From a virus: 33,460 nt of DNA. The stretch covers positions 1 through 33,460 of the IMG/VR virus record IMGVR_UViG_3300047299_000031; one strand, written 5' to 3'. The notes beneath the pieces are model-generated. The model was given only the letters and a program-made list of their open reading frames with translations, did not search any database and was not told where the DNA came from. This document shows, piece after piece, positions 1-21,203 of this stretch. Made by a program: the position numbers and the translations under genes. Position 1 is the first letter of the stretch; the number at the start of each line of letters is the position of its first letter.

Positions 1-1562
1 TTACAGAGACTCCAGAGCAAAGGATTAAAGATATTGCCAATAAAGCTGAAAAATACCTTAAAGTAGAAGGTTTCGCAAAGAAATTTGAAGATTATATGTC
101 AAGAGGATTTTACAGCCTTTCAACACCGGTCTGGATTAATTTCGGTAAAGACAAAGGACTTCCAATCAGTTGCTATGGTTCTAATGTAGATGATACATTA
201 GATAGTATTTTGAACGCAGGAAGAGAAATTGGAATGATGTCAAAGTATGGTGGTGGAACTAGCATTTATTTAGGAAACATTAGAGCAAGAGGCACCAAAA
301 TTTCAACAGGCGGTACGGCAGATGGACCTGTTCACTACGCAAGAATCTATGACACAACAGTAGACGTTTGTAAACAATCAGAAGCAAGAAGAGGTGCATG
401 CGCAGCATGGTTACCCATTGAGCACGCAGATATTTTAGAATTCTTAGACATTGGAACTGAAGGAAATCCAATTCAAAACCTTCAATATGGAGTTACAGTA
501 ACTGATCAATGGCTTGAAGAAATGAAAGCCGGTGACGCAGATAAAAGAAAAGTTTGGGCTAAAGTTATTCAAAGACGTAATGAATTTGGTTTTCCATACA
601 TTATGTTTAAGGACAACTCTAATAATAATTCACCATACAAGGATTTAGGTCTTGAAATTACAGCAAGTAACCTATGTTCTGAAATTCAATTGCCAACAGA
701 CTCATTTAATTCATTTGTTTGTTGTTTAGGTTCTATCAATCTTTTACATTGGGATGAGTTAAAAGACACTGACGCAATTGAAGTTTACACAATGTTCCTT
801 AATGCGGTAATGGATGAATTCGTTAAGAAATCATACAACATGCCAGGTATGTCAAGAGCACACAGATTTGCAGAGCAACACAGAGCGTTAGGTGTTGGAG
901 TTCTTGGATACCATTCACTGTTCCAGTCTAAATTAATTGAATTTGATTCTCTAGCAGCTAAGCAATTAAACTATCAGATCTTTAAAACTATTAAAGAAAA
1001 AACTGAAGCTGCATCAAAGTATTTACACGACGAAAAGGGTTATCGTTCTTTAAGAGAAGGATTTGCAAATACTACTTTAGTGGCTATTGCACCTACAAAA
1101 TCAAGTTCATTTATTCACGGACAAGTTTCGATGGGAATCGAACCTATTAAATCTAATTATTTCATTAAAGACTTAGCTAAGTCAAAGACGATCTATAAGA
1201 ATCCTTTCTTAGTAGAAGAATTAGAAAAGTACGGTTTAAATACACCAGACGTTTGGGAAGGAATCTTAAAAAGAGATGGCTCAGTTCAACACTTAGATTT
1301 TCCAACTAAAGGAGTATTCAAATCATTTATTGAAATCACACCCAGAGAATTAATTACACAAGCGGCTCAAAGACAACAATTTATAGACCAATCTCAGTCT
1401 TTGAACCTAATGATACACCCTTCAGTGCCAGCTAAGGATATTAATCAATTGTATTTGTATGCGCATGAAGAGGGAGTTAAGACTCTATATTATCAATTTA
1501 GCCAAAGTTCAGCACAATCATTTGCTAGAGATATTCTAGAATGTGCAAGCTGTGAGGCATAA
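1..1562 (+). CDS. nrdA: Ribonucleotide reductase class I large subunit NrdA, 5' end outside the window
   Basis: Reduces ribonucleoside diphosphates to deoxyribonucleotides for phage DNA synthesis, working with the radical-generating NrdB subunit, which is not in this window. The frame is open from position 3, so the first in-window ATG (96) is not the true start; about 519 C-terminal residues are present of roughly 750 usual for the family. Catalytic features seen: active-site cysteine in LPISCYG (codon 171-173), the N-x-C-x-E triad in ASNLCSEI (669-683), the second redox cysteine in FVCCLGSIN, the phosphate-binding APTKSSSF segment, the radical-transfer tyrosine pair in KTLYYQ (1488-1493), and a C-terminal CASC pair that would be re-reduced by thioredoxin or glutaredoxin. 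The gene is intact to its TAA stop and is followed by tandem hairpins and a terminator. Confidence 0.97.
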   Translation, partial: TETPEQRIKDIANKAEKYLKVEGFAKKFEDYMSRGFYSLSTPVWINFGKDKGLPISCYGSNVDDTLDSILNAGREIGMMSKYGGGTSIYLGNIRARGTKISTGGTADGPVHYARIYDTTVDVCKQSEARRGACAAWLPIEHADILEFLDIGTEGNPIQNLQYGVTVTDQWLEEMKAGDADKRKVWAKVIQRRNEFGFPYIMFKDNSNNNSPYKDLGLEITASNLCSEIQLPTDSFNSFVCCLGSINLLHWDELKDTDAIEVYTMFLNAVMDEFVKKSYNMPGMSRAHRFAEQHRALGVGVLGYHSLFQSKLIEFDSLAAKQLNYQIFKTIKEKTEAASKYLHDEKGYRSLREGFANTTLVAIAPTKSSSFIHGQVSMGIEPIKSNYFIKDLAKSKTIYKNPFLVEELEKYGLNTPDVWEGILKRDGSVQHLDFPTKGVFKSFIEITPRELITQAAQRQQFIDQSQSLNLMIHPSVPAKDINQLYLYAHEEGVKTLYYQFSQSSAQSFARDILECASCEA

Positions 1563-1565
1563 AGA

Positions 1566-1614
1566 TCCGGTGGCCTGAAACACGGCCACATTTTAGGACC
1601 GTTCTAGTTAACGG
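1566..1614 (+). other. Tandem hairpins directly after nrdA
   Basis: Four bases after the nrdA stop come two perfect stems: GTGGCC (1570-1575) with GGCCAC (1584-1589) around an 8-nt loop, and CCGTT (1599-1603) with AACGG (1610-1614) around a 6-nt loop. TCC (1566-1568) can also pair with GGA (1596-1598). The terminator stem follows two bases later. The heptamer AGGACCG (1595-1601) recurs at 2691-2697, at the same distance from the next terminator. The region could protect the mRNA 3' end or be a processed RNA. Confidence 0.5.
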
Positions 1615-1641
1615 CTGGGCAGGAAACAAGTTCGCTACTAT
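1615..1641 (+). repeat. 27-nt direct repeat, copy 1
   Basis: These 27 bases (beginning CTGGGCAGGAA and ending GCTACTAT) are identical to 2312-2338. They cover the 5' arm and the loop of the terminator. The second copy lies after the next gene, so the two copies bracket the 178-aa gene at 1748-2284. Confidence 0.95.
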
Positions 1642-1660
1642 TCCTGCCCTTTTTATTTTT
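1617..1660 (+). terminator. Rho-independent terminator after nrdA
   Basis: GGGCAGGAA (1617-1625) pairs perfectly with TTCCTGCCC (1641-1649) around a 15-nt loop, followed by a T-rich run to 1660. The 5' arm and loop are part of a direct repeat with 2312-2338. Confidence 0.85.
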
Positions 1661-1665
1661 AAGCA

Positions 1666-1674
1666 GATATATAA
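1666..1674 (+). promoter_or_regulatory. Late-promoter-like motif GATATATAA
   Basis: Matches the motif found upstream of the head and tail genes; it lies just after the nrdA terminator and 73 bases before the 178-aa gene. Confidence 0.5.
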
Positions 1675-1747: not shown

Positions 1748-2284
1748 GTGAAACACATTCTATTATTTGAACATTTTTTATTAGAAAATGCGGGAGACGC
1801 TGCTATAGCTAATATGTTGATTAAACTTCTATATAAATATGGAAATGCGAGCAAGGATGCAGCACTGTTTGGAGAAACTTCAAATATCCAGATACAGCTT
1901 GACGTAGCGTCAGCACAAGAAGATGATAAAATGGCCGATCATTTTAAACAAGTTTTAAAAGAAAATCCTAAAAAGGCTGCAAAATATCAAAAAGCAGCTG
2001 ACGCGCTTTTAAATCAAATAGAATCTCTTAAGGAAAAAGCGCCTAGGGAGGTTAAGGGATTAGTTAGTATGTATGTAAAGGAAGTATTACCGTTATCAAT
2101 AGAGCGCACCATCAAGTATAATAAAAACTCAACATACACATACGCAGCATCGAAAGATAAAAAATATACAGAAGACGCATCTAAATATAAAAATGAATTT
2201 GCGGCGGCTGATGCAAAATATGCTAAAATTAGCAAAGAATACGAAAATAAAGTCAAAGAAGTTATTTCTAATATTGCAAAGTAA
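1748..2284 (+). CDS. Candidate internal head protein with capsid-targeting-like N-terminus (178 aa)
   Basis: No enzyme family recognised. The protein is helical, rich in lysine and alanine and has no cysteine. The GTG start is chosen because the resulting N-terminus, MKHILLFEHFLLE, lines up with MKYTRLFEDFINE of the next gene: both begin M-K, share L-F-E-x-F at residues 6-10 and place I/L at 11 and E at 13. T4 internal proteins carry a comparable targeting peptide (MKTYQEFIAEA) that is removed by the gp21 protease after an (I/L)-x-E motif. By analogy this protein may be packaged in the prohead and injected with the DNA. The residue after E13 here is N, not the usual A or G, so cleavage is uncertain. 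It stands alone between two terminators, with its own promoter-like sites, which suits an exchangeable accessory cassette. Role after injection is unknown. Confidence 0.8.
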   Translation: MKHILLFEHFLLENAGDAAIANMLIKLLYKYGNASKDAALFGETSNIQIQLDVASAQEDDKMADHFKQVLKENPKKAAKYQKAADALLNQIESLKEKAPREVKGLVSMYVKEVLPLSIERTIKYNKNSTYTYAASKDKKYTEDASKYKNEFAAADAKYAKISKEYENKVKEVISNIAK

Positions 2285-2311
2285 GTATTAAACACTTTCT
2301 ACATTAAGAAT

Positions 2312-2338
2312 CTGGGCAGGAAACAAGTTCGCTACTAT
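2312..2338 (+). repeat. 27-nt direct repeat, copy 2
   Basis: Identical to 1615-1641. The sequence after it has diverged (TATCCCGGCC here, TATTCCTGCCC in copy 1), so the 5' arm and loop are better conserved than the 3' arm of the hairpin. Confidence 0.95.
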
Positions 2339-2351
2339 CCCGGCCTTTTTT
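2313..2351 (+). terminator. Imperfect terminator after the 178-aa gene
   Basis: The repeat's GGC-A-GG can pair with CC-G-GCC (about 2339-2345) with one internal mismatch, or CTGGG with CCCGG including one G-U pair; seven or more T residues follow. Weaker than the copy at 1617-1660. Confidence 0.6.
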
Positions 2352-2352
2352 T

Positions 2353-2361
2353 AATATATAG
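2353..2361 (+). promoter_or_regulatory. Late-promoter-like motif AATATATAG
   Basis: Lies directly after the terminator T-run and 22 bases before the start at 2384; first base A instead of the commoner G. Confidence 0.5.
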
Positions 2362-2383
2362 CATAAGAACATATAAATTAATC

Positions 2384-2659
2384 ATGAAATACACTAGACT
2401 TTTCGAAGACTTTATTAATGAAGGCTCAGTTTCAGATATTGTTGCCAAAATGCAAGATAATGGCCAAAAGGCAAATGATATTAAAGCAAAAACTGCTGAA
2501 ATTAAGCAGAAAATGAAAGATAATTTTCAAAAGGAAGCTCCTTTAGAAGATAACAAAATATTAGCATATCAAACTGAAATCAATGCTATGAAATTAAGAA
2601 TCATTGACCTGCAAAATAAAATTCTTAGAATTAAGATAGAAAAAGAACAGCAGGGATAA
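2384..2659 (+). CDS. Candidate small internal head protein with capsid-targeting-like N-terminus (91 aa)
   Basis: Short, charged, entirely helical protein with heptad-like spacing of leucine and isoleucine in residues 50-85, suggesting a coiled coil. Its first 14 residues, MKYTRLFEDFINEG, resemble the T4 internal-protein targeting peptide, and I11-N12-E13 before G14 matches the gp21 cleavage rule (I/L)-x-E before A or G. Cleavage would leave a mature protein of 78 residues. The shared N-terminus with the preceding gene, each with its own terminator and late-type motif, argues for a pair of capsid-packaged accessory proteins. No homologue is recognised and the function after packaging is unknown. 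Confidence 0.8.
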   Translation: MKYTRLFEDFINEGSVSDIVAKMQDNGQKANDIKAKTAEIKQKMKDNFQKEAPLEDNKILAYQTEINAMKLRIIDLQNKILRIKIEKEQQG

Positions 2660-2712: not shown

Positions 2713-2739
2713 AGCCTGTCAGTAATGACAGGCTTTTTT
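2713..2739 (+). terminator. Rho-independent terminator before the replication block
   Basis: AGCCTGTCA (2713-2721) and TGACAGGCT (2726-2734) form a perfect 9-bp stem with a GTAA tetraloop, then a run of T. It separates the accessory genes from the clamp-polymerase operon. Confidence 0.9.
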
Positions 2740-2797: not shown

Positions 2798-3544
2798 ATG
2801 AAGATTAAAATTTCGAAAGTAGATCAAGGCAATTTTACATCATTTGTTAACAGACTTAAAGTAATTGATTCTTTCATTTATTTTAAGATTAAAGATGGTC
2901 GTATTATCTCATCTGCTTATTTACCACAGCGAGATGCTGTAAAACACCACACGCTTCCTTTAAATGAAGTATTTGTCATCGATGGTAAAATTGAAACCGA
3001 AAAAGAATTAAAGGTTGCTTTCTTCGATGCTAACAAATTAATTGATGCATTCCGTCAATTTGAGTATGATGCAATCCAAGGTGAAATTGAATTCACAGAA
3101 AATGATGAAGATTGTGTAGCAAATAGCTTTAAGATCTTTACTGATGATTTGGAAATTACCTTAGCATGCTCAGAACCATCTTTAGGTTTCAAAGACTTAA
3201 CAGATTCTCAGTTACAAAATATCTTTAATACTGAAGGCGCTGAAGCAACATTCGAATTGTCTTACACCGACGTATCAAAAATCAAATCTTTATTTGGTTT
3301 AGATAAAGATGAAACTTTTGCAATTGCAGCTAACAAGGATGGTATCCGAGTTAAAGGTAAATCTTACAATAAATTAATTAACGCAGCTTCTTCTCCGAAG
3401 ACAGATGTAACAGTTTACAAAAAATACTTGAATCTCTTCGATAAAGAAGATTACGCAACAAATGTATTCTCAAACAGAATCGTATTGCGTTCTAAAGACT
3501 CAGATACTTTGTTAACTATTGCAACTTGTCAAACCGCTGATTAA
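2798..3544 (+). CDS. 45: DNA polymerase sliding clamp, gp45-like
   Basis: Expected to form the trimeric ring that tethers the phage DNA polymerase to DNA and, in T4, also activates late transcription by binding gp55 and gp33. At 248 aa it is slightly longer than T4 gp45 (228 aa). The sequence is a mixed alpha/beta protein with two similar halves (about 1-120 and 135-248) and the acidic surface usual for phage clamps; there are no catalytic motifs. The call depends on this general form plus position: its stop overlaps the start of the polymerase gene by one base (TAATG), the next genes are uvsX and 41, and the clamp loader gp44 is encoded at 21781. First gene of the replication operon, behind a terminator and a GTATAATAG promoter-like site. 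Confidence 0.85.
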   Translation: MKIKISKVDQGNFTSFVNRLKVIDSFIYFKIKDGRIISSAYLPQRDAVKHHTLPLNEVFVIDGKIETEKELKVAFFDANKLIDAFRQFEYDAIQGEIEFTENDEDCVANSFKIFTDDLEITLACSEPSLGFKDLTDSQLQNIFNTEGAEATFELSYTDVSKIKSLFGLDKDETFAIAANKDGIRVKGKSYNKLINAASSPKTDVTVYKKYLNLFDKEDYATNVFSNRIVLRSKDSDTLLTIATCQTAD

Positions 3545-4740
3545 TGATAATTGAAGAACTTTTAAATAAAACCGAAGATCAACTATCTTTGGAAGAAATG
3601 AAAACCTTGGCAGAATTCTATTCAACAGAATCTGCCAAGTTTACTGCTTATGAGCAAGCTGTTAAGGTAACTCTTAACTCTATATATGGCGCCTTTGGAA
3701 ATAAATGGTTTCACTTTTTCAATATTGACATCGCTGAATCCATTACATTGCAAGGTCAAAACGCAATTCTTTATTCTGAAAAAATCTTAAACAAATACTT
3801 TCAAGATTTCTTCATTAAAGACACTGAAGTTCATAAGACGTTAAACATTTCTGTTAAGCGACCAATCGTAAAGCCCGCTGTAATTTATATTGATACTGAT
3901 TCAAACTATGTACAGTTTCAAGAAATGTATGAAGCAATTGAGTGGCATGGCAAAAAGCTAGATATTGTAACCTTTATTTTGCAGATCTATGATATGCGAA
4001 TTAAGCAGTATATCGTTAAAGCATTAGATAAGTATGCTGAAAATACAAACACAGATTCTTTCTTGGAATTTGAATTGGAATCGGTTGCTTACGCTGGAAT
4101 CTGGTTGGCAAAGAAAAAGTATCTTCAGAATTTAGCATGGGATGATAAGATCCCAAAGACTGAACGCCACAAAATGTTGAAGAAGATTAAAACAATTGGG
4201 TACGATACAATTCAATCTTCAACACCAACCTTTGCTCGTAAAAAATTATCTGAAGCTCTTTCTATTTTGTTTGAAAAGAAACCAACACAAGAAACACTTG
4301 GTATTCTAGCAACTTTCTTACAAAAAACCAAAAAGGAATTTAAGATGATTTCAGTGGATGAAATTGCTTTTAATAAAAGAACTAACAACATTGAAAAGTA
4401 CATTGTTGATGACCACATAGAATTTCAATATGGACTAAAATGTCCACCTAACGTTAAAGCAGCTGGATTCTATAACTACTTAATGAATACTCATCCTGAA
4501 TTTAAATCTAAATACAGAATGATTTCAAACGGTGAAAAGCTAAAATTGTATCATTGCAACCATGGTGTATGTGAAATGTTTGGATATTTACCAGGCGATC
4601 ATCCTTATGAATTTGCACCAGAAGTAGATTATGAAACTCAATTTGAAAAATCAATTATTGACCCATTAAATCGAGTTTTAGACTGTGTAGGTTTACAACA
4701 ATTAAACAGAAACCTATTATATTCAACCTCATTATTTTAA
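3544..4740 (+). CDS. 43: DNA polymerase gp43, C-terminal half of a split family B enzyme
   Basis: Carries the second half of a family B polymerase: motif B K41-VTLNSIYG49 (nucleotide-binding finger helix) and motif C YIDTDS with catalytic D117 and D119, followed by the thumb to the C-terminus at 398. The 3'-5' exonuclease domain and motif A (D-x-x-SLYP), which supplies the third metal-binding aspartate, are absent here and in the neighbouring clamp gene. From motif B to the end is about 358 residues, close to the same interval in T4 gp43 (about 340), so this is a complete C-terminal half and not a decayed remnant. The first 40 residues would form the helix before motif B. It must pair with an N-terminal subunit encoded elsewhere. 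The C-terminus STSLF is a plausible clamp-binding tail. Start overlaps the clamp stop (TAATG), implying coupled translation. Confidence 0.93.
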   Translation: MIIEELLNKTEDQLSLEEMKTLAEFYSTESAKFTAYEQAVKVTLNSIYGAFGNKWFHFFNIDIAESITLQGQNAILYSEKILNKYFQDFFIKDTEVHKTLNISVKRPIVKPAVIYIDTDSNYVQFQEMYEAIEWHGKKLDIVTFILQIYDMRIKQYIVKALDKYAENTNTDSFLEFELESVAYAGIWLAKKKYLQNLAWDDKIPKTERHKMLKKIKTIGYDTIQSSTPTFARKKLSEALSILFEKKPTQETLGILATFLQKTKKEFKMISVDEIAFNKRTNNIEKYIVDDHIEFQYGLKCPPNVKAAGFYNYLMNTHPEFKSKYRMISNGEKLKLYHCNHGVCEMFGYLPGDHPYEFAPEVDYETQFEKSIIDPLNRVLDCVGLQQLNRNLLYSTSLF

Positions 4741-12642: not shown

Positions 12643-13062
12643 ATGTCAAATCTAGTGAGCGCAGAAAAACCAAAGCCAAGAGCAAAAAAGAAAAACTACT
12701 TGAACAACGCTGATTTTTATAAAGCGATTGTTGAGTCCAAAGAGCAGGGAAAGCTAACACGAGATGCTGAAAAGATGCTAATTTTATTAGCTGAAAAGGC
12801 AATTAATAAAATGAAATATGTAGATGAAAAAGACAGAGAAGATTGTCTTGCGTTTGCTATTTTAGATTTATTAAAGTATTGGAAGAATTTCAATCCACAG
12901 TATACTAATGCCTTTGCCTACTTTACAGAAATCGCAAAGAAAGGTTATGCTAAAGGATGGAATACTATTCATCCAGAAAAATATAAAGGAACTCTTTCCA
13001 TTGATAGAGCTGGCCGTGGAAGTGGTGGCGAAGATGGAGAAGGTGGTATTTACACAATCTAA
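12643..13062 (+). CDS. 55: Late-transcription sigma factor gp55-like
   Basis: Directs the host RNA polymerase core to phage late promoters. Residues about 22-30 (NADFYKAIV) correspond to NEDFTKAII of T4 gp55, and residues 63-106 form the sigma region 2-like core: KDREDCLAFAILDLLKYW, then FNPQYTNAFAYFTEIAKKGY, parallel to T4 YREDMISDGIENCLMYFDNFDPEKSKNPFAYFTQI in spacing and aromatic positions. At 139 aa it is shorter than T4 gp55 (185 aa), mainly in the N-terminus. The C-terminus is a glycine- and glutamate-rich linker (about 124-135) ending IYTI; T4 gp55 also ends in a short hydrophobic clamp-binding motif, so this tail may do the same. It lies behind a GTATAATAG site, and its stop overlaps gene 4 (TAATG). 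Confidence 0.88.
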   Translation: MSNLVSAEKPKPRAKKKNYLNNADFYKAIVESKEQGKLTRDAEKMLILLAEKAINKMKYVDEKDREDCLAFAILDLLKYWKNFNPQYTNAFAYFTEIAKKGYAKGWNTIHPEKYKGTLSIDRAGRGSGGEDGEGGIYTI

Positions 13063-13547
13063 TGTCAATTAAAAACGTTAAACCCACAAAGAAATCAGGA
13101 TTTACGCAAGGCTATTTTAAACCTCTTAATCCTACAAAATATGTTGGAGCTCCTCCAATCATATACAGATCTTCATGGGAACGTAAATTTATGATATGGT
13201 GCGATACCAACGAAAAAGTGTTGTTGTGGTCGAGTGAACCAATACAGATAGAATATTTGTCTAGACAAGACCAACGAACACATAATTATTTTCCAGATTT
13301 TTACATGAAAGTGTTACAAGAAAATGGAAAAACCAAAGAATTTTTAGTTGAAATAAAACCAAAGAATCAACTAGTAAAACCAGAGCCACCTAAGAAAAAT
13401 TCTAAGAAAGCTTTGGATTCATATAAGTTTTTAGCAGAACAATACGTTAGAAACATGGATAAATATGCAGCAGCGAAAATATACTGTGCAAATAGAGAAT
13501 GGAACTTTATTGTATTAACTGAAGAATCATTAAATGGCTTACATTAA
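13062..13547 (+). CDS. 4: Head completion protein gp4-like (nuclease fold)
   Basis: T4 gp4 is needed to finish DNA-filled heads before tails attach. This 161-aa protein (T4 gp4 is 150 aa) shares the signature: QGYFKPLNPTKYVG near the start, then IIYRSSWERKFMIWCDTN (34-50), SSEPIQIEY (57-65), YFPDF with D79, and FLVEIKP with E97 and K99. The D...E-x-K arrangement is that of the PD-(D/E)xK nuclease fold, and E40 sits in the first helix as usual for that fold. A lysine- and proline-rich insert follows (101-118). Its last 14 bases overlap the next gene, and its start overlaps the gp55 stop by one base; gp55 and gp4 being co-transcribed links late-gene control to head maturation. Confidence 0.93.
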   Translation: MSIKNVKPTKKSGFTQGYFKPLNPTKYVGAPPIIYRSSWERKFMIWCDTNEKVLLWSSEPIQIEYLSRQDQRTHNYFPDFYMKVLQENGKTKEFLVEIKPKNQLVKPEPPKKNSKKALDSYKFLAEQYVRNMDKYAAAKIYCANREWNFIVLTEESLNGLH

Positions 13548-14151
13548 AAAACAAATTCAACAATTATCTAAAGATGCTGGCAGCAAAAAGAAGGCTAGGA
13601 TAGATGCTGAATCTTGGTTTAATGATAGCCTTAGAAAAATGTCAGATAAAAATGTACAATTAACACCTAAGCCATTCATGCCCGGCAAAATTTACGTGTT
13701 TGAATACCCTAATCCAGTTACAAAAGATCAGTTAGATTGGTGGGATAAAAGACCAGTAGTGCTAGCATTAAATTCAATAGACGCAACAACGGATTGCGGC
13801 ATTAATCTTAATTTATTACCAATAAAGTTTAAAGAGGAACTTTTAGATGCTTTTTATGAAGCTTTTAAATCTCCAATTAATGCAGCAACAAACGGTATGA
13901 GTAAAGAAGATGCTCTAAGACAAAAAGCATTAACTACGTTAAGATATGAAAATGTAAAGCGATATTTAGATAAATTTGGATTTGGCTTTGCAATTAGAAG
14001 ATATAAAACAAATCTTAAAAGAAGGCAAACTGTTGTAAGTTATGAGAGTTGGCCTAAAATTGCATTATGTGATTTTATTACAATAGCGGGAGGCACCGTT
14101 TGGGTTGTAAGAAGAATGTTCACAGAATACAATATTAAGAGGAATATATAA
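13534..14151 (+). CDS. Conserved-looking hypothetical protein of the gp4 operon (205 aa)
   Basis: Not identified by name. The N-terminal 45 residues are basic and helical. The core has a distinct segment PGKIYVFEYPNPVTKDQL followed by WWDKRPVVLALNS, then GINLNLLP and a helix KEELLDAFYEAF. This reads like a family I associate with T4-like myoviruses, whose members carry a Y-x-P-K/T-x-x-x-L-x-Y/W-Y/W-D-x-x-P-L-V stretch followed by GLNLHYLP; I cannot name its function. The C-terminus is basic (KTNLKRRQ) and aromatic. It overlaps gene 4 by 14 bases and ends 31 bases before the portal gene, so a role in head completion, DNA end binding or packaging is plausible by position only. Confidence 0.85.
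   Translation: MAYIKKQIQQLSKDAGSKKKARIDAESWFNDSLRKMSDKNVQLTPKPFMPGKIYVFEYPNPVTKDQLDWWDKRPVVLALNSIDATTDCGINLNLLPIKFKEELLDAFYEAFKSPINAATNGMSKEDALRQKALTTLRYENVKRYLDKFGFGFAIRRYKTNLKRRQTVVSYESWPKIALCDFITIAGGTVWVVRRMFTEYNIKRNI
14143..14151 (+). promoter_or_regulatory. Late-promoter-like motif AATATATAA before the portal gene
   Basis: Overlaps the last codons of the preceding gene and ends 31 bases before the gene 20 ATG. Confidence 0.55.
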
Positions 14152-14182: not shown

Positions 14183-15808
14183 ATGGCAGGATTCGTAGAA
14201 AGAAACGGACCATTTAGTGTAGGTAGAAGAACCTTTAATTTGAGCGATACTTTAAAAAAGCTATCCTCATTTGGTATGTATTATGATGATTTAGTCTTGA
14301 GACAATCTCAGGCTATTGGTCCAATGGAAGATCAATTTGGTTATGGCCAAATGAACTTAATGGGCGTAGATTCAGATGACATTTACGGTGCTTTTGCCGC
14401 CCTTTCAATGGCAGATACAAACATGAGAAAGAACATTCCGTTCTTTGACATGAATTATAAGTCTAAAAGAGAAGAGCTAAGACAATTTTCTTTATATGAT
14501 GAGATTGAAGATATTCTAGACATTTTATGTGATGAATCAATTGTTTTCGATGAAAAGAATTTTATTGCAGTTCCATCGTTAATTGGTTTAGAAGTTTCAG
14601 AAGAGGTTACAAGTTATTTAAATAAAGCATTCCGAAACATTTATCAATATTTTGGATTTGCAGCAGATCAATCTGCATGGTTCTATTTCCGTAAATGGTT
14701 AATTGATGGTTATTTATCATTTGAGATTATTTACAATCCAGAAATGACAGAGATCATTGGTTTTAAAGAGATTGACCCAATTACATTAGTTCCTGCATAT
14801 AATAAAGATGATGGTAAGAAAGTTTGGATTCAATTTAAAGACGATCCAATTAAAGAAAGAAAATTATATGATTCTCAAATCATCTATATTTCTTACTCAT
14901 CAATCACAACAGCATCGCGTATTTCTTACGTTGAAAGATTAATTAGAGCATTCAACTTATTGAGAGTTATGGAACACACCAGAGTTATCTGGGCCGTTAC
15001 TAACGCTTCATATAGAATGAAATTTATTATCCCAGTCGGTGGTAAATCTAAAACAAGAGCAAAACAATCCCTTGCTCAATTAATGAATAACTACAAAGAA
15101 GTAGTTGACTTTGATTGGGAATCTGGTAATCTTACAACTAATGGTAAACCAAATTTACAATTTAATAAGGAATATTGGTTACCTTCAAAAGACGGTGAGC
15201 AACCTGAAATTGAAACATTAGGTAATGATGGTCCAGAAATTAATGACACTGATGCATTAAAATACTTCTCAGATAAATTAAAACACGTATCTAAGATTCC
15301 ATTTAACAGATTTATGTATGAAGATGGCGGTGGAGATTTTGCAATCTCAGCCGATGGTATGATTAGAGATGAGATTAAGTTTGCTAAGTTCGTAAATCGT
15401 TTACGTTCTTCATTCCAAGAAATTTTAGTTAAACCTCTTTATATTCAAATGTGTTTAAAGTTCCCTGAATTCAAGGAGGATCCTGCATTCAAAACTCAAA
15501 TTGCATTAAGATATAATGAAGAGAACATGTTTGCTGAGATGAAGTACATGGAGATTATGGAGAAGAGATTAGACTTTATTGCTAAAATGAAAGATGATTT
15601 AGTAATTACTAATCCAATGACGATGGAAGAAGAACACTACTTCGATATGGAATTCTTAGTTGATAGATACTTGAAATTATCTCCAGATGATAAAATTGCT
15701 AATGAAGCAGCTAAGGCTAGAACTGAAGCGGCTAAAGCAAAAGAACCACCAAGCGATATGATGGGTATGATGGGTGGAGCCGGAGCCGGTGGAGCCATGG
15801 GATTCTAA
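14183..15808 (+). CDS. 20: Portal vertex protein gp20
   Basis: Forms the dodecameric ring at one capsid vertex; starts prohead assembly, threads DNA during packaging and binds the neck. At 541 aa it fits T4 gp20 (524 aa). Family hallmarks seen: a long N-terminal region, EIEDILDILCDESIVFDE, the KEIDPITLVP-type strand, the tail-channel helix region around ERLIRAFNLLRVMEHTRVIW, and the signature KEYWLPSKDGEQPEIETLG then ALKYFSDKLKHVSKIPFNRF. The C-terminus is glycine- and methionine-rich (PSDMMGMMGGAGAGGAMGF), an unusually flexible tail. It opens the head gene block 20-(core)-21/22-23, the same order as in T4. Confidence 0.97.
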   Translation: MAGFVERNGPFSVGRRTFNLSDTLKKLSSFGMYYDDLVLRQSQAIGPMEDQFGYGQMNLMGVDSDDIYGAFAALSMADTNMRKNIPFFDMNYKSKREELRQFSLYDEIEDILDILCDESIVFDEKNFIAVPSLIGLEVSEEVTSYLNKAFRNIYQYFGFAADQSAWFYFRKWLIDGYLSFEIIYNPEMTEIIGFKEIDPITLVPAYNKDDGKKVWIQFKDDPIKERKLYDSQIIYISYSSITTASRISYVERLIRAFNLLRVMEHTRVIWAVTNASYRMKFIIPVGGKSKTRAKQSLAQLMNNYKEVVDFDWESGNLTTNGKPNLQFNKEYWLPSKDGEQPEIETLGNDGPEINDTDALKYFSDKLKHVSKIPFNRFMYEDGGGDFAISADGMIRDEIKFAKFVNRLRSSFQEILVKPLYIQMCLKFPEFKEDPAFKTQIALRYNEENMFAEMKYMEIMEKRLDFIAKMKDDLVITNPMTMEEEHYFDMEFLVDRYLKLSPDDKIANEAAKARTEAAKAKEPPSDMMGMMGGAGAGGAMGF

Positions 15809-15829: not shown

Positions 15830-16192
15830 ATGAATAGCAAAAAATACGTTAAGACATTTGAACAGTTCTTTTTGAATGAAGAGGACGATGCTTTAAAAGC
15901 ACCAGATTCAAAGGTATATGTTGATGATGTAACTATTGATAGTGGAGAAACTATCAAAGCTGCAGAAATTTTAGGAGCTATTACTGCCTCTAAAACTGAA
16001 GATGACTTCAAGGACTATTTCTTTCAAACCTATGGTAATTTAGCATTCCAAGATGGTGAAATGGAACAATTAGTTAAATACTATAATCAATACGAAGAAG
16101 AAAGAAATCAAGAAGAAACTGATAAAGAGCAAGAAAAAGAAGGTGAAGGCGGTGGAGAAAAAGATCCGTTAGCTGGATTAGGAGGCCTATAA
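15830..16192 (+). CDS. Small acidic prohead core-like protein (120 aa), gp67/68 position
   Basis: In T4, genes 67 and 68 encode small prohead core proteins located between 20 and 21; this gene sits in the same place. The N-terminus MNSKKYVKTFEQFFLNEE resembles the targeting peptide of T4 internal proteins, with L15-N16-E17 as a possible cleavage motif though E follows instead of A or G. The middle is helical and the last 35 residues are extremely acidic and glycine-rich (EEERNQEETDKEQEKEGEGG), a feature shared in kind with T4 gp67. No direct sequence match can be claimed. It is likely a scaffold-core component digested or expelled on maturation. Confidence 0.8.
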   Translation: MNSKKYVKTFEQFFLNEEDDALKAPDSKVYVDDVTIDSGETIKAAEILGAITASKTEDDFKDYFFQTYGNLAFQDGEMEQLVKYYNQYEEERNQEETDKEQEKEGEGGGEKDPLAGLGGL

Positions 16193-16253: not shown

Positions 16254-18110
16254 ATGAATATTGAATCTAAAAAACTCTTGATTCTAGAAAGAAGTGGTAA
16301 CACTTTATCGTTTAAACAAGACAACGCTGGCGCTTATGTACTAGAAGGTGTTTTTGGTGAAATTGATAAAATGAACCGTAACAATAGAATCTATACTGAA
16401 GACGAATATCTTCCGCAAGTTGAAGCGCTTCAGAACAAAATCAATTCGTCTAAGTTATTAGGAGAATTAGATCATCCTCAAAATTTTGACATTTCTTTAA
16501 AGAATGTTTCTCACATTATCGAGGAATTAAGATATGACAAAAACAGTAAGCAGATCTTAGGTAAAATTAGATTATTGGACACAGATGCTGGTAAACAAGC
16601 AAAAGCTTTAGTTGATGCAGGTGTTCCATTACACATTTCTTCAAGAGCAGCTGGTACAGTTGAATCAAACGGTAAAGTTAAAATCAAACAACTTTTTACT
16701 TATGATTTAGTTGCAGATCCAGGTTTTGCTAATGCTGAGTTAAAGAGAGTTAACGAAGCTTATGGTTTCGAAGAAGATCAAGATTTATTGATTTATGAAA
16801 TCAATCCAACGGATAACACACAATCACAAATAAAAGAAGCAGAAAAAATGGAAACATCAAGATTTGTAAGCTCTGATGACTTCAATAATTACTCTAAGTA
16901 TTTAGCTGAAGAAATTAAAGCTCTTAAAGAATCTATTGCTAAATCAAATGATAAGGAGTCTTTAGCTGCTCAGGTTGAGAACTTAAAGGAATATTCATCT
17001 TATTTAGCAGAGAAATTAAATCAGTCAATTGCTTATGCTGAGCATGTTGCTGAAAAGGCCGATCAAGGCATTCAATACTCTGAAGAATTAGCAGAGAAAT
17101 TAGATAACTCAATTCAATACTCTGAGCATATCGCTGAAGGAGTTGAATCAATTAAGAAGTACACGAATTACTTAGCTGAATCTTACAATGAAGGAGTTAT
17201 CTCTCATGAAAACGTAACTAAGTACATGAACTACTTAAAAGAAAACTTAGAAAGAGTAAGCGAATACGCTGAATACGTTGCAGAAACAGTAAACACTAAC
17301 CTATTAATGGAAGATGATACTGATGCTGGTAAAGAATTAACAGAAGATCCAAAGGACGTTACACCTCCAGTTGTTGATGCAGATGGTAAGGAATATGCTA
17401 AAGCAGAAGACAGAGCTGAAGACGATTCTAAAGAATTAGAAAAGGATTTAGAAGGTGATACTGAAGAAGTTGCAAAAGAAGTAGCCGTTGATGGTGAAGC
17501 AGCTGATAAAGTTGACGCTGAAGAAGGTGAAAAGGCTGAAGAAGGTGAAGCTGGTAAAGAAGTAGTTGAGTCAGTAGACAAAATGGAAGCTTACAAGGCT
17601 GAAATCTCTTCTAAATTAAGCGCTTTATTAGAATCAGCAACTGCAAAGAAAGTTGAAGAGCCACATTTCTTCAAGTTTATTGCTGAAGCTAAGAAAGAAG
17701 AATTCAACGCATTAGAAACTGAAGCAAAAGAAAAGGTAATTGCAGCAGTATCTGGTAAAGGTTTCTTAACAGAATCTCAAATCTACGCTTTATGGAATCA
17801 ATCTTTAGCTGGCGCTCCAGTTGAGAACGAACCGTTAGTAATCGCAGCAATGCCATCTGAATACAAAGAAACTTGGAACGCATTATCTGAAGCCAAGAAG
17901 AATCAATTATTAGCTCAATCTAAATATCACAGATTAGAGACTGAATATCAAGTAAGAAACTTCTGGCAAACAAGAGACTTCAGAGAAGTTGCTCCAGTAA
18001 TGGAAAAAGTTGAAATTGTAAATGAAGCTGTTGAATCAGTAGAAGCTCCAACATTACCATACAATATGGAAGGCGTAGCTGAATCATTCAACAAAAGATT
18101 CAAAAAATAA
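16254..18110 (+). CDS. 21: Prohead protease fused to scaffold protein (gp21-gp22-like, 618 aa)
   Basis: Residues 1-185 are the prohead maturation protease (T4 gp21, 212 aa): FGEIDKMNRNNRIYTED, GELDHP with catalytic H74, HISSRAAG with nucleophile S129 or S130, and DLVADPGF with D151/D155. Residues about 205-350 form a coiled coil of 14-residue repeats beginning Y and containing AE. Residues 353-440 are very acidic, and 445-618 is a helical domain. This is the composition and place of T4 scaffold gp22, normally a separate gene between 21 and 23. Protease-type sites (I/L)-x-E before A/G occur at the junction (I193-K-E/A196) and inside the scaffold (IAE/G296, IAE/A479, LSE/A547). M199 (16848) follows the junction in an A-rich context like other starts of the window, so scaffold could also be made separately. 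The frame is continuous, with no sign of a sequencing frameshift. Confidence 0.93.
   Translation: MNIESKKLLILERSGNTLSFKQDNAGAYVLEGVFGEIDKMNRNNRIYTEDEYLPQVEALQNKINSSKLLGELDHPQNFDISLKNVSHIIEELRYDKNSKQILGKIRLLDTDAGKQAKALVDAGVPLHISSRAAGTVESNGKVKIKQLFTYDLVADPGFANAELKRVNEAYGFEEDQDLLIYEINPTDNTQSQIKEAEKMETSRFVSSDDFNNYSKYLAEEIKALKESIAKSNDKESLAAQVENLKEYSSYLAEKLNQSIAYAEHVAEKADQGIQYSEELAEKLDNSIQYSEHIAEGVESIKKYTNYLAESYNEGVISHENVTKYMNYLKENLERVSEYAEYVAETVNTNLLMEDDTDAGKELTEDPKDVTPPVVDADGKEYAKAEDRAEDDSKELEKDLEGDTEEVAKEVAVDGEAADKVDAEEGEKAEEGEAGKEVVESVDKMEAYKAEISSKLSALLESATAKKVEEPHFFKFIAEAKKEEFNALETEAKEKVIAAVSGKGFLTESQIYALWNQSLAGAPVENEPLVIAAMPSEYKETWNALSEAKKNQLLAQSKYHRLETEYQVRNFWQTRDFREVAPVMEKVEIVNEAVESVEAPTLPYNMEGVAESFNKRFKK
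16890..17306 (+). repeat. 14-residue coiled-coil repeats in the scaffold part
   Basis: Units of 14 residues start at Y213, Y247, Y261, Y275, Y289, Y303, Y324 and Y338 with the pattern Y-x-x-Y/H/L-h-A-E-x-h; units 247-316 are strictly contiguous. Two heptads per unit indicate a regular left-handed coiled coil. DNA identity between units is partial, so the repeat is old. Confidence 0.8.
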
Positions 18111-18324: not shown

Positions 18325-19758
18325 ATGGCACAATTAATTAACGAAGCTGAAATCAGAGCTACATGGTCTCCGATCATCGAATCAGCTACTGGTATCACAG
18401 ATGCTAACAAATTAGCATGGATGTCTGAGTACTGCCACAATCACAAGTTGTACGAAGACGCAAACATCATGAGATTAGACCCAACTATGAACTTACACGG
18501 TATGGGTGCTGTATCTTTCCCATCAAACTTTGGTTCTAATCCAACTACAGCAGGTTCTGGTGACAAAGCTCCAACTTTATTACCTTTAGCAATGCAAGTT
18601 GCTGCACAAACAATCGCTTTAGATTTAGTACCTGTAATTCCAATGGCTGGTCCAATGGGCTTATTATCTTACTTAGACTTCGTTTACGAAGGTGGTAGAT
18701 TAGATAACACAGTTGCTCCAACTTACATTAAATCAGCAGACGCTGCTGCAGGTAATGACGTTGTTGCTGGTGTATCAAGAATTGATGGTAAAAACATCAT
18801 CAAAATTGTTGATGCTTTAGATATCGCTGGTGGTGAAACTAAAATCACTGACAGATACGCTGACGCAGTATTAGTTAAAGCGTTAGAAGATCATATCCCT
18901 GGATTCTCTGGTGATAATTCAATCAACGCTGCTAATCCTTACGGAAGAGCAGAAGGTGAAAGAACTCCAGATAGATTAATGGGTCTTTCTTTATTCAGCA
19001 AAGCAGTTGAAGCTAAAACTTTCCAAGTTGCTGCTGCTGTAACTAGAGAGCAAGTTCAAGATTTAAAACAATTCGGTGTTGATGCTGTTGCTCAAGTTGA
19101 AGCTGTTTTAGTTAACGAATTAACTCAATCTATCAACGATTACATCATCGCTGAAATCGATACATTAGGTGCATCTAACATCACTAAAGCTGCTGCAGCT
19201 GGTGAAATTTCTGCAACTTCAATGAACGTAAACTTATATGCTGCTTCTGCATTGCAAGGTGGTAAAACTGAAGGTTCTGAGCACAGAAAAATCTTAACTG
19301 GTATCTTAGCTGCTGCTAACTTAATTGCTAACAGAGGTAGAAGAGGTGCTGGTAACTTCGCGGTTGTAGGACCACAAGTTGCTACTGCATTACAATCAGT
19401 TGCTGGTTATGTTCCAAACCCATTCGCTAACACAGTTTCTCAAGCTGCTGGTGCAATCTACCCAGTAGGTTCTATCGCAGGTGTTCAAGTTTACACTAAC
19501 CCTAAGTGGAAGTGGAACAACATGGACGTATTAGTTGGTAGAAAAGGTGACGGTAACGGTCCTGGTTTAGTGTTCATGCCTTACTTAATGGCTGAATCAG
19601 TACAAACTATCGCTGAAGGTACAATGGCACCAAAAATTGCTGTTAAATCTAGATTCGCTTTAGTTGAAGCTGGTTTCCACCCAGAAACTCAATACGTGAA
19701 ATTCACTATCGGTGTTGCTGGTTCTACACAATGGACTAACTTGATCTCTTTATCTTAA
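18325..19758 (+). CDS. 23: Major capsid protein gp23
   Basis: Builds the hexamers of the head shell with an HK97 fold. The 477-aa product is shorter than T4 gp23 (521 aa). Recognisable family sequence: LHGMGAVSFPSNFG, then GSGDKAPTLLPLAMQVAAQT, IALDLVPVIPMAGPMGLLSYLDFVYEGG, and C-terminal MAPKIAVKSRFALVEAGFHPE. The protease motif I5-N6-E7 before A8 lies almost at the start, so the removed propeptide may be only seven residues, against 65 in T4. Codon use is strongly biased (GCT, GGT, TCT, TTA, AAC), as expected for the most abundant virion protein. It forms its own transcription unit, bounded by a promoter motif and terminators. Vertex protein gp24 is not seen in this window. Confidence 0.97.
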   Translation: MAQLINEAEIRATWSPIIESATGITDANKLAWMSEYCHNHKLYEDANIMRLDPTMNLHGMGAVSFPSNFGSNPTTAGSGDKAPTLLPLAMQVAAQTIALDLVPVIPMAGPMGLLSYLDFVYEGGRLDNTVAPTYIKSADAAAGNDVVAGVSRIDGKNIIKIVDALDIAGGETKITDRYADAVLVKALEDHIPGFSGDNSINAANPYGRAEGERTPDRLMGLSLFSKAVEAKTFQVAAAVTREQVQDLKQFGVDAVAQVEAVLVNELTQSINDYIIAEIDTLGASNITKAAAAGEISATSMNVNLYAASALQGGKTEGSEHRKILTGILAAANLIANRGRRGAGNFAVVGPQVATALQSVAGYVPNPFANTVSQAAGAIYPVGSIAGVQVYTNPKWKWNNMDVLVGRKGDGNGPGLVFMPYLMAESVQTIAEGTMAPKIAVKSRFALVEAGFHPETQYVKFTIGVAGSTQWTNLISLS

Positions 19759-19880: not shown

Positions 19881-21203
19881 ATGAATACAGAATTAAAATT
19901 TGATGATTGGTGTAAACATATTTTAGAATCTATGGATGCAGCTCCAGCAGCTCCGGCTAAAACTGAATCGGCGCCAGTTACATCTGCAGCACCTGCGTCA
20001 ACCGCAAACGCAGAAGTTAAGACAGATTCTAAAACTTCTATTATCAGCGATGTAGATGCAATCATGAATAACTTAGCTCAATTATCTGTTCAGATCAAAG
20101 AAGCAGTCGATACTATTGAAGTATTCGAAACTGAAGAATTAAATGAAGAGGAATTAAATGAAGATCAGGCCATTTTTGAATTAACAGCTGATGAAGCTGG
20201 TAGTAAATTGGCAGATTGGATCTATTATGCTCCTAAATATAGAAAAATGCAACAGAAGGTTAATAAAATGAAAATGAATTCATTAGACATTCAGATTGCA
20301 ATCGACAATTTATCGGATGAAGAAATGGATTCAACCGCTAAAAAAGCTAAAAAGGACGTATTGTCTTCAAAGAGAAGTACATTGCAAGATCAAATTAAAG
20401 ATCTACAGGACGCAATAGATACTAAAGCAAGAGAAAGAGGCGAATATATTGGAAAGGTATTAAGTTCTGAAAAAATTAAAGGCCAAATGGCTTTAGTTAA
20501 AAGATCTTCTGGCCAAGAGGACGATCCTAAAAAACAAAAGGATTTGGCCGCATCAATGAAAGAATTACAGCAAAGATTCAATGATGAACAAGCTGCAATG
20601 AAAGAATTGACAAATAAAGAAAAACAAAAAAAGGCAAATTCTACTCAGAAATCAGTAAAGGAACCTAAAAAGGAAGAACCTAAAAGGGAAGAGCCTAAAA
20701 AAGAGGAACCTAAAAAGGAAGAACCTAAAGCCGAAGAGCCTAAAAAAGAGGAACCTAAAAAGGAAGAGCCTAAGAATAAGGCAGCAGAATTAGAGGCAGA
20801 CATTAAATCATACAACAATAATATTGCTGAAGAAAGAGCTGCTATTGAAAAAGCAAAAGAAGAATTAAAAACTGAAAAAGATCCTGAGAAAATTGCAAAA
20901 TTAAAAGATTCTATTCAACAATCAAAGGAAGATATTACAGAAATGCAAGCTGAAATTAAGAAATTAAAAGATGATTTTAAAAAGTCAGCTCCTGCAAAAG
21001 AATCTTTAATATTCGCAGCAAATGAATTAGGATTAAATGAAATGGCAAATGAAATTGCAACCAAACAAGATTGGCAATTTGAAAATAATTCAGCTCTTTA
21101 CGTTAAATACAATACGGAGATTGAAAAACAGTCTGCATTGAAAAAAATTAATGAGTCTACCGCAATTTCGGTTGCAGATAAATTTAGAATGTTATTAGGA
21201 TAA
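19881..21203 (+). CDS. Coiled-coil, KEEP-repeat protein downstream of the capsid gene (440 aa)
   Basis: No family recognised. Layout: N-terminus FDDWCKHILES with I14-L15-E16, loosely like the targeting peptides of this window; an Ala/Pro/Thr-rich linker (20-48); an acidic helical part with two ELNE motifs (about 85-95); a coiled coil (about 110-255); eight short Lys-Glu-Glu-Pro units (262-298); a second coiled coil (about 300-370); and a C-terminal helical domain. Extremely charged and almost free of cysteine. Its single-gene late unit beside gene 23 suggests a head-internal, scaffold-like or head-associated protein. In T4 the gene after 23 is the vertex protein 24, to which this bears no visible resemblance. 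Confidence 0.85.
   Translation: MNTELKFDDWCKHILESMDAAPAAPAKTESAPVTSAAPASTANAEVKTDSKTSIISDVDAIMNNLAQLSVQIKEAVDTIEVFETEELNEEELNEDQAIFELTADEAGSKLADWIYYAPKYRKMQQKVNKMKMNSLDIQIAIDNLSDEEMDSTAKKAKKDVLSSKRSTLQDQIKDLQDAIDTKARERGEYIGKVLSSEKIKGQMALVKRSSGQEDDPKKQKDLAASMKELQQRFNDEQAAMKELTNKEKQKKANSTQKSVKEPKKEEPKREEPKKEEPKKEEPKAEEPKKEEPKKEEPKNKAAELEADIKSYNNNIAEERAAIEKAKEELKTEKDPEKIAKLKDSIQQSKEDITEMQAEIKKLKDDFKKSAPAKESLIFAANELGLNEMANEIATKQDWQFENNSALYVKYNTEIEKQSALKKINESTAISVADKFRMLLG
20661..20774 (+). repeat. Tandem 15-nt repeat encoding K-E-E-P-K units
   Basis: About eight units of 15 bases (core GAAGAACCTAAAAAG with GAA/GAG and A/G changes) give the pentapeptide KEEPK with R or A variants. Synonymous differences show the units are not freshly copied. 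Such extended, charged repeats usually act as rigid spacers. Confidence 0.9.

Follow-up and report, generated by a model that had tools for sequence, protein, structure and literature searches.

Two small genes of this phage lie between nrdA and the sliding-clamp gene, amid replication genes, and encode proteins that look alike only at their N-termini. We asked whether this shared N-terminus is a tag for packaging into the phage head, as in the internal proteins (IPs) of T4, and what the proteins carrying it may do. The window, by which we mean the whole 33,460-nucleotide stretch of DNA analysed, is a 33.5-kb viral contig of the T4 superfamily in which a portal, an S77 prohead protease and a gp23 capsid protein were all found. 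Its closest named relatives, LR756500-504, are uncultured phages of huge size (462-735 kb), and more distant relatives are phages of Prevotella, Tenacibaculum and Chryseobacterium. This makes a host among the Bacteroidota likely, though unproven. The genes called clamp, helicase and the like are named from ORFs read by eye, with family searches covering only part of them. Read in this way, a 398-aa ORF at 3544-4740 of the window resembles the C-terminal part alone of a family B DNA polymerase (YGAFGNKW, DTDSNYV), and it is possible that the polymerase gene is split. Separately, the recA/uvsX-like gene of the relative G013 (36550-39050, L128) is broken by about 1.4 kb, possibly an intron or a mobile insert.

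Two proteins with a shared N-terminus

The first gene (1748..2284, + strand) has a GTG start and encodes a 178-aa protein (MKHILLFEHFLLENAGD) with a 165-aa body of pI 9.18 that is predicted to be helical. The second (2384..2659, + strand) has an ATG start and encodes a 91-aa protein (MKYTRLFEDFINEGS) with a 78-aa body of pI 9.23. All that the two have in common is MK...LFExF[IL]xE, that is M1, K2, L6, F7, E8, F10, L or I at 11 and E13. When the bodies of tagged ORFs were clustered, these two fell into separate clusters. The capsid-targeting-like tags occupy 1748..1786 (MKHILLFEHFLLE) and 2384..2422 (MKYTRLFEDFINE), both on the + strand, and each has a predicted cut after E13.

This arrangement was compared with T4. 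We checked the T4 sequences: IPII and IPIII begin with MKTYQEFIAEA, and IPI begins with MKTFKEFTSTTTPVSTITEA. In IPIII, residues 4 and 7 mainly govern targeting and residues 8 and 10 processing (PMC9026906), and the biology of this capsid targeting sequence (CTS) is documented (PMC9026906, PMC3012670). In both window proteins F7, F10, [L/I]11 and E13 have exactly the spacing of CTS positions 4, 7, 8 and 10. A preliminary description made from the sequence had claimed two ORFs at these coordinates with a common N-terminal pattern on unrelated bodies, a likeness to the T4 leader and, for the 91-aa protein, a cut site between E13 and G14 that fits the T4 rule. The ORF check and the clustering bore out the first of these claims. 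The likeness held as well, with the same residue spacing and the same leader in IPII and IPIII, and so did the cut site. The predicted site of the 178-aa protein (L11-L12-E13, with N14 after the cut) fits the rule too.

The bodies themselves give little further information. No relatives of the 178-aa body were found by tblastn, in a scan of viral contigs, with phmmer against 17,396 ORFs or among PDB sequences, and for this reason its tag is beyond a test by conservation. Its single-sequence structure prediction, which is helical, had a pLDDT of 55, too low for a fold search. The 91-aa protein has tagged 90-aa relatives in two phages, at another locus. PDB matches of this family were only coiled-coil-like chance matches, and weak Pfam and PHROG matches of both bodies were also dismissed as chance. 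No homology of either body to IPI, IPII or IPIII was seen in a phage collection containing T4 at E values up to 1. Such homology is not required of internal proteins, as the known ones have only the leader in common (PMC12373910).

The tag in related phages and its links to the prohead

It could be argued that two short N-termini rich in lysine and glutamate match by chance, given that only eight positions are shared, by only two proteins, in an A+T-rich genome. We derived the motif [FY]xx[FY][ILV]xE in advance, solely from T4, and scored its occurrence in 17 related phage records. It started at residues 2-16 in 148 cases, where the internal rate predicts 12.7; 95 of the 148 began exactly at residue 7. 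Among the 32 genes of the window, the motif is expected at residue 7 0.007 times and was seen twice. Because the 17 records are mutually related, the P value overstates independence, but the excess itself is not in doubt. In control genomes the same count picked exactly ipII and ipIII in T4 and gave zero tagged genes in T7 and lambda; PTm1 and Lak-C1 had no tag excess, with counts near expectation. These data, together with about 94 unrelated tagged bodies, all but exclude a chance match.

Tagged genes are numerous in some of these phages. There were 33 motif genes in the 735-kb phage (2.65 expected; 400 kb read) and four in the cultured Chryseobacterium phage MA9V-2 (0.56 expected), with one of these four lying between its portal and protease genes. 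One 256-kb relative has about 20 tagged genes, clustered near 193-200 kb, and other relatives have at least 11. Over all loci, 234 distinct tagged ORFs formed 100 body clusters, 67 of them singletons. Six ORFs with an accidental-looking motif were taken out before the remaining 94 representatives were aligned. The consensus was MKxIKLFExFxNE with almost nothing beyond it, and M1, F10 and E13 were nearly invariant. In the tag logo the P1' residue is highly variable (A, K, S, G, N and others), and V is common at P3, as compared with the published T4 rule of L/I-x-E. There are thus about 94 tagged families with nothing else in common, and most are unannotated. A search for the same N-terminus in other short genes had been proposed in the preliminary description; its outcome is the roughly 20 genes of the 256-kb relative and the 94 or so families overall. 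Weak PADLOC matches of the tagged family set were dismissed as chance.

Two other observations were made among these ORFs. A conserved family of 421-429 aa with LEGG[AS].GH[ML].HPF has a tag-like N-terminus (G012 879-2168, G013 12831-14120, W01 267941-269206) and no Pfam match. In the 462-kb phage W01, three tagged ORFs (13446, 180972 and 313382) form one cluster, and the set contains Pfam leucine-rich repeats.

A tag of this kind could also have a destination other than the head. The N-terminus might dock onto a host factor, the replisome or a membrane with no capsid link; the genes do sit among replication genes, and a short aromatic-acidic peptide may have many possible binding partners. 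The head genes of the window bear on this. The portal protein (gp20 family; 14183..15808, + strand; PF07230, E 4e-69) is followed by a 120-aa head-operon protein (15830..16192, + strand) in the position of T4 gp67/gp68, between portal and protease. This protein carries a variant tag, MNSKKYVKTFEQFFLNE followed by E. The strict tag is found in 34 of its 54 distinct relatives, and nearly all of the other 20 have the aromatic pair, a spacer and then [ILV]xE (FEEFTGSLQE). This is as in T4 IPI, where a spacer separates the targeting part from the cut site (FKEFTSTTTPVSTITE), and the split form is thus also present in the clade of the window. Next comes an S77 prohead protease fused to a scaffold-like C-terminal half (16254..18110, + strand; PF03420, E 1.9e-11), and then the major capsid protein (gp23 family; 18325..19758, + strand; PF07068, 8e-40), in which [LI]xE is conserved at residues 7, 19 and 44. 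The gene 3' of the capsid gene encodes a 440-aa protein (19881..21203, + strand) whose orthologues start with FENWY..ILE, a form of the tag with tryptophan. Fusion of protease and scaffold is a feature of the clade and, it appears, of the 462-735 kb phages as well; in T4 these are the separate genes 21 and 22.

The scaffold half contains repeats of [FY]xx[FYHE][ILV]xE (16890..17285, + strand; 14/21-residue spacing), the same motif as that of the tag. It holds six strict copies, most of them 14 or 21 residues apart, compared with 0.07 in shuffles (0 of 20000 reached six), and because of this the tag looks like one scaffold repeat. The scaffold of the 735-kb phage has about 15 copies in slightly looser letters, and elsewhere in the 17 records proteins have two copies at most. 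As a separate observation, a 1691-aa protein of LR756503 (21458, L331) contains seven FVxY[LI][IA]E copies and is the one protein outside the scaffolds in which many were seen. In T4, the maturation site of gp23, FGSFLTE before A, is itself motif-like. T4 gp22 lacks such a repeat, and therefore a scaffold-mimic step has no direct T4 parallel.

These data argue against docking elsewhere: the scaffold repeat and the head-operon protein have the same motif, the spacing is that of the T4 CTS, and [ILV]xE is retained even where a spacer parts it from the aromatic pair. We consider such docking very unlikely. It is likely, as inferred from sequence alone, that the tag is tied to the prohead through the head-operon protein, the scaffold repeat and the gp23 maturation site. 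The earlier claim of prohead targeting is supported, in part by links independent of the motif, namely the S77 protease, the scaffold repeat and the tagged head-operon protein.

The interval between nrdA and the clamp gene

Both neighbours are present in 57 related contigs. Strictly tagged genes (51 genes) occupy 32 of these nrdA-clamp intervals, and eight contain other genes only, several of which have split or variant tags. The other 17 had no ORF listed; in the count made for the promoter motif below, 16 of 58 intervals were empty. Because the occupants differ between phages, this interval is a cargo hotspot in which tagged genes are swapped.

Each gene of the window has a late-promoter-like site 5' of it on the + strand, ATATATAA (1667..1674) for the 178-aa gene and ATATATAG (2354..2361) for the 91-aa gene. 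The motif, ATATATA[AG], was spotted by reading the upstream regions of structural genes and was tested afterwards. It lies before the portal gene in 14 of 14 cases, capsid in 13 of 15, protease in 5 of 5 and sheath in 5 of 5, and is absent before nrdA, clamp, polymerase, recA, helicase, gp46, gp47 and clamp loader. Its only + strand occurrences in the window's first 10.9 kb are at 1667 and 2354, and 41 of 42 occupied hotspot intervals contain it, compared with 2 of 16 empty ones. Over all tagged genes the enrichment immediately upstream is only mild (33/109 compared with 294/1405), possibly as many of them lie inside operons, and no clear motif emerged when the k-mers upstream of tagged genes were searched. 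ATATATA[AG] is probably a late promoter, although this is inferred from the motif without expression data. Early-only expression, which the preliminary description said would refute its reading, is not favoured, as each gene has a late-promoter-like site and the surrounding replication genes have none.

Both promoter-like sites are preceded by a terminator-like hairpin. The first hairpin ends a structured RNA (1562..1655, + strand) with invariant TTAGGACCG and TTCGCTAC loops, which is found directly 3' of nrdA in 31 of 31 aligned relatives. This RNA has a covarying first stem and five covarying pairs, its last hairpin is the terminator, and Rfam has no family for it. The second hairpin (2314..2350, + strand) is a further copy, with an exact 17-nt repeat of 1624-1640 at 2321-2337. 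Another terminator hairpin (2713..2734, + strand) lies 3' of the 91-aa gene.

Cargo, proposed pathway and known systems

Some tagged relatives outside the window belong to anti-defence families. Two of these, G002_180681 and G004_199513, match Tad3, a Thoeris inhibitor. The match of the former has a Pfam E value of 9e-22 (above the cut-off) and 4e-35 to the solved Tad3 9b7d, and begins at residue 48. The tag lies in the N-terminal extension ahead of the domain, together with three [LI]xE sites (residues 14, 30 and 42), so that cutting would free the known Tad3 domain nearly at its start. A third tagged protein, G012_76648, matches the anti-CBASS family Acb1 in Pfam (2e-7, above the cut-off) and has both HxT motifs intact. 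By sequence it matches solved Acb1 only weakly (0.01), and the fold matches of its low-confidence model are to 2H phosphoesterases as a whole. T4 Acb1 (gp57B) has no tag. Further tagged cargo domains are a P-loop/zeta-like kinase, an acetyltransferase, a polynucleotide phosphatase and a metallopeptidase.

The idea in the preliminary description that the two window proteins are injected effectors is strengthened by the tagged Tad3 and Acb1-like relatives; a counter-defence role of the 178-aa and 91-aa proteins themselves is not shown. The main rival is that they are packaged by the tag but structural, serving as a basic core filler or DNA condenser in head assembly or packing with no action in the host. 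Both bodies are basic (pI about 9.2), with 27 lysines in the larger and 13 in the smaller, and this and the predicted helical fold of the 178-aa protein would suit a DNA-binding head filler. Also, some tagged families are clearly head-operon proteins, and T4 head assembly is slower without IPIII (PMC9026906). However, the locus is empty in some phages and holds different cargo in others, so the genes are accessory, and other cargo consists of enzymes and known anti-defence proteins. We therefore regard the filler explanation as unlikely and an injected effector as the best reading, while the function itself remains open.

Overall, the 178-aa and 91-aa proteins are likely to be T4-type internal proteins packaged in the head, although presence in the virion, targeting, cleavage and injection are inferred and there are no virion proteomics. 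As an injected effector, each protein would be made during head assembly from its own putative late promoter inside the replication block. The F7/F10 pair would then imitate one scaffold repeat and bind to the core of the prohead, the role of Y4/F7 in T4 IPIII, and the prohead protease would cut after E13 ([LI]xE) to free the mature protein inside the head. By analogy with T4, the protein would enter the host with the DNA. Least certain is the last step, in which it may counter host defence or help to take over the host during the first minutes.

A bolder reading, which we favour by a small margin, is that large phages of the T4 superfamily (with genomes to 735 kb) load dozens of proteins into the head by means of a scaffold-repeat copy, including anti-Thoeris and anti-CBASS proteins otherwise known untagged. 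It would then be possible to list the injected set by reading the sequence, with the nrdA-clamp hotspot as a plug-in cargo site that has its own late promoter. Injected phage proteins are usually identified by proteomics alone. With a tag that can be read in the sequence, if this reading is correct, small uncharacterised genes of huge phages could be ranked as candidate first-minute effectors (about 94 families), and inhibitors of Thoeris and CBASS signalling defences could be delivered ready-made with the DNA via a T4-type tag. That the tag copies a scaffold repeat is also a testable rule of cargo choice.

As a comparison, T4 IPI-III likewise have a short leader, an aromatic pair with an [LI]xE end and unrelated bodies, and the T4 system shares the S77 prohead protease, accessory hotspots and the split form seen in IPI. 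By contrast, the leader here has 13 residues (MKxIKLFExF[ILV]NE) rather than 10, there are about 20 or more tagged genes per genome rather than three, the scaffold is fused to the protease and built of the tag motif, and the bodies have no detected similarity to IPI-III. The Ip loci of T-even phages (Repoila 1994; Silas 2025, PMC12373910) are also hotspots that swap tagged genes with different bodies. A counter-defence role, which is inferred here, is known for Ip1-3, which are injected and block GmrSD nucleases (PMC12373910); IPIII acts in the cytoplasm (PMC9391042). The present system differs from these loci in its nrdA-clamp hotspot, its clade (probably on Bacteroidota) and its tagged Tad3 and Acb1-like cargo. 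The inner-body and ejection proteins of phiKZ-like giant phages are head proteins that are cut by the prohead protease and ejected, as is inferred here. PhiKZ injects Tad1, and according to a 2026 review no other anti-defence protein has been described from jumbo phages (PMC13282480). Unlike the 13-residue tag on a T4-type head, several propeptides of SPN3US exceed 100 residues (PMC5694885). No paper describing the present system was found in the open-licence literature searched. The T4 internal proteins, the CTS and the variable loci are already well known; the novelty lies in the clade, in how large the arsenal is, in the tag being identical with a scaffold repeat, in the promoter-bearing hotspot and in the recognisable Tad3 and Acb1-like cargo.
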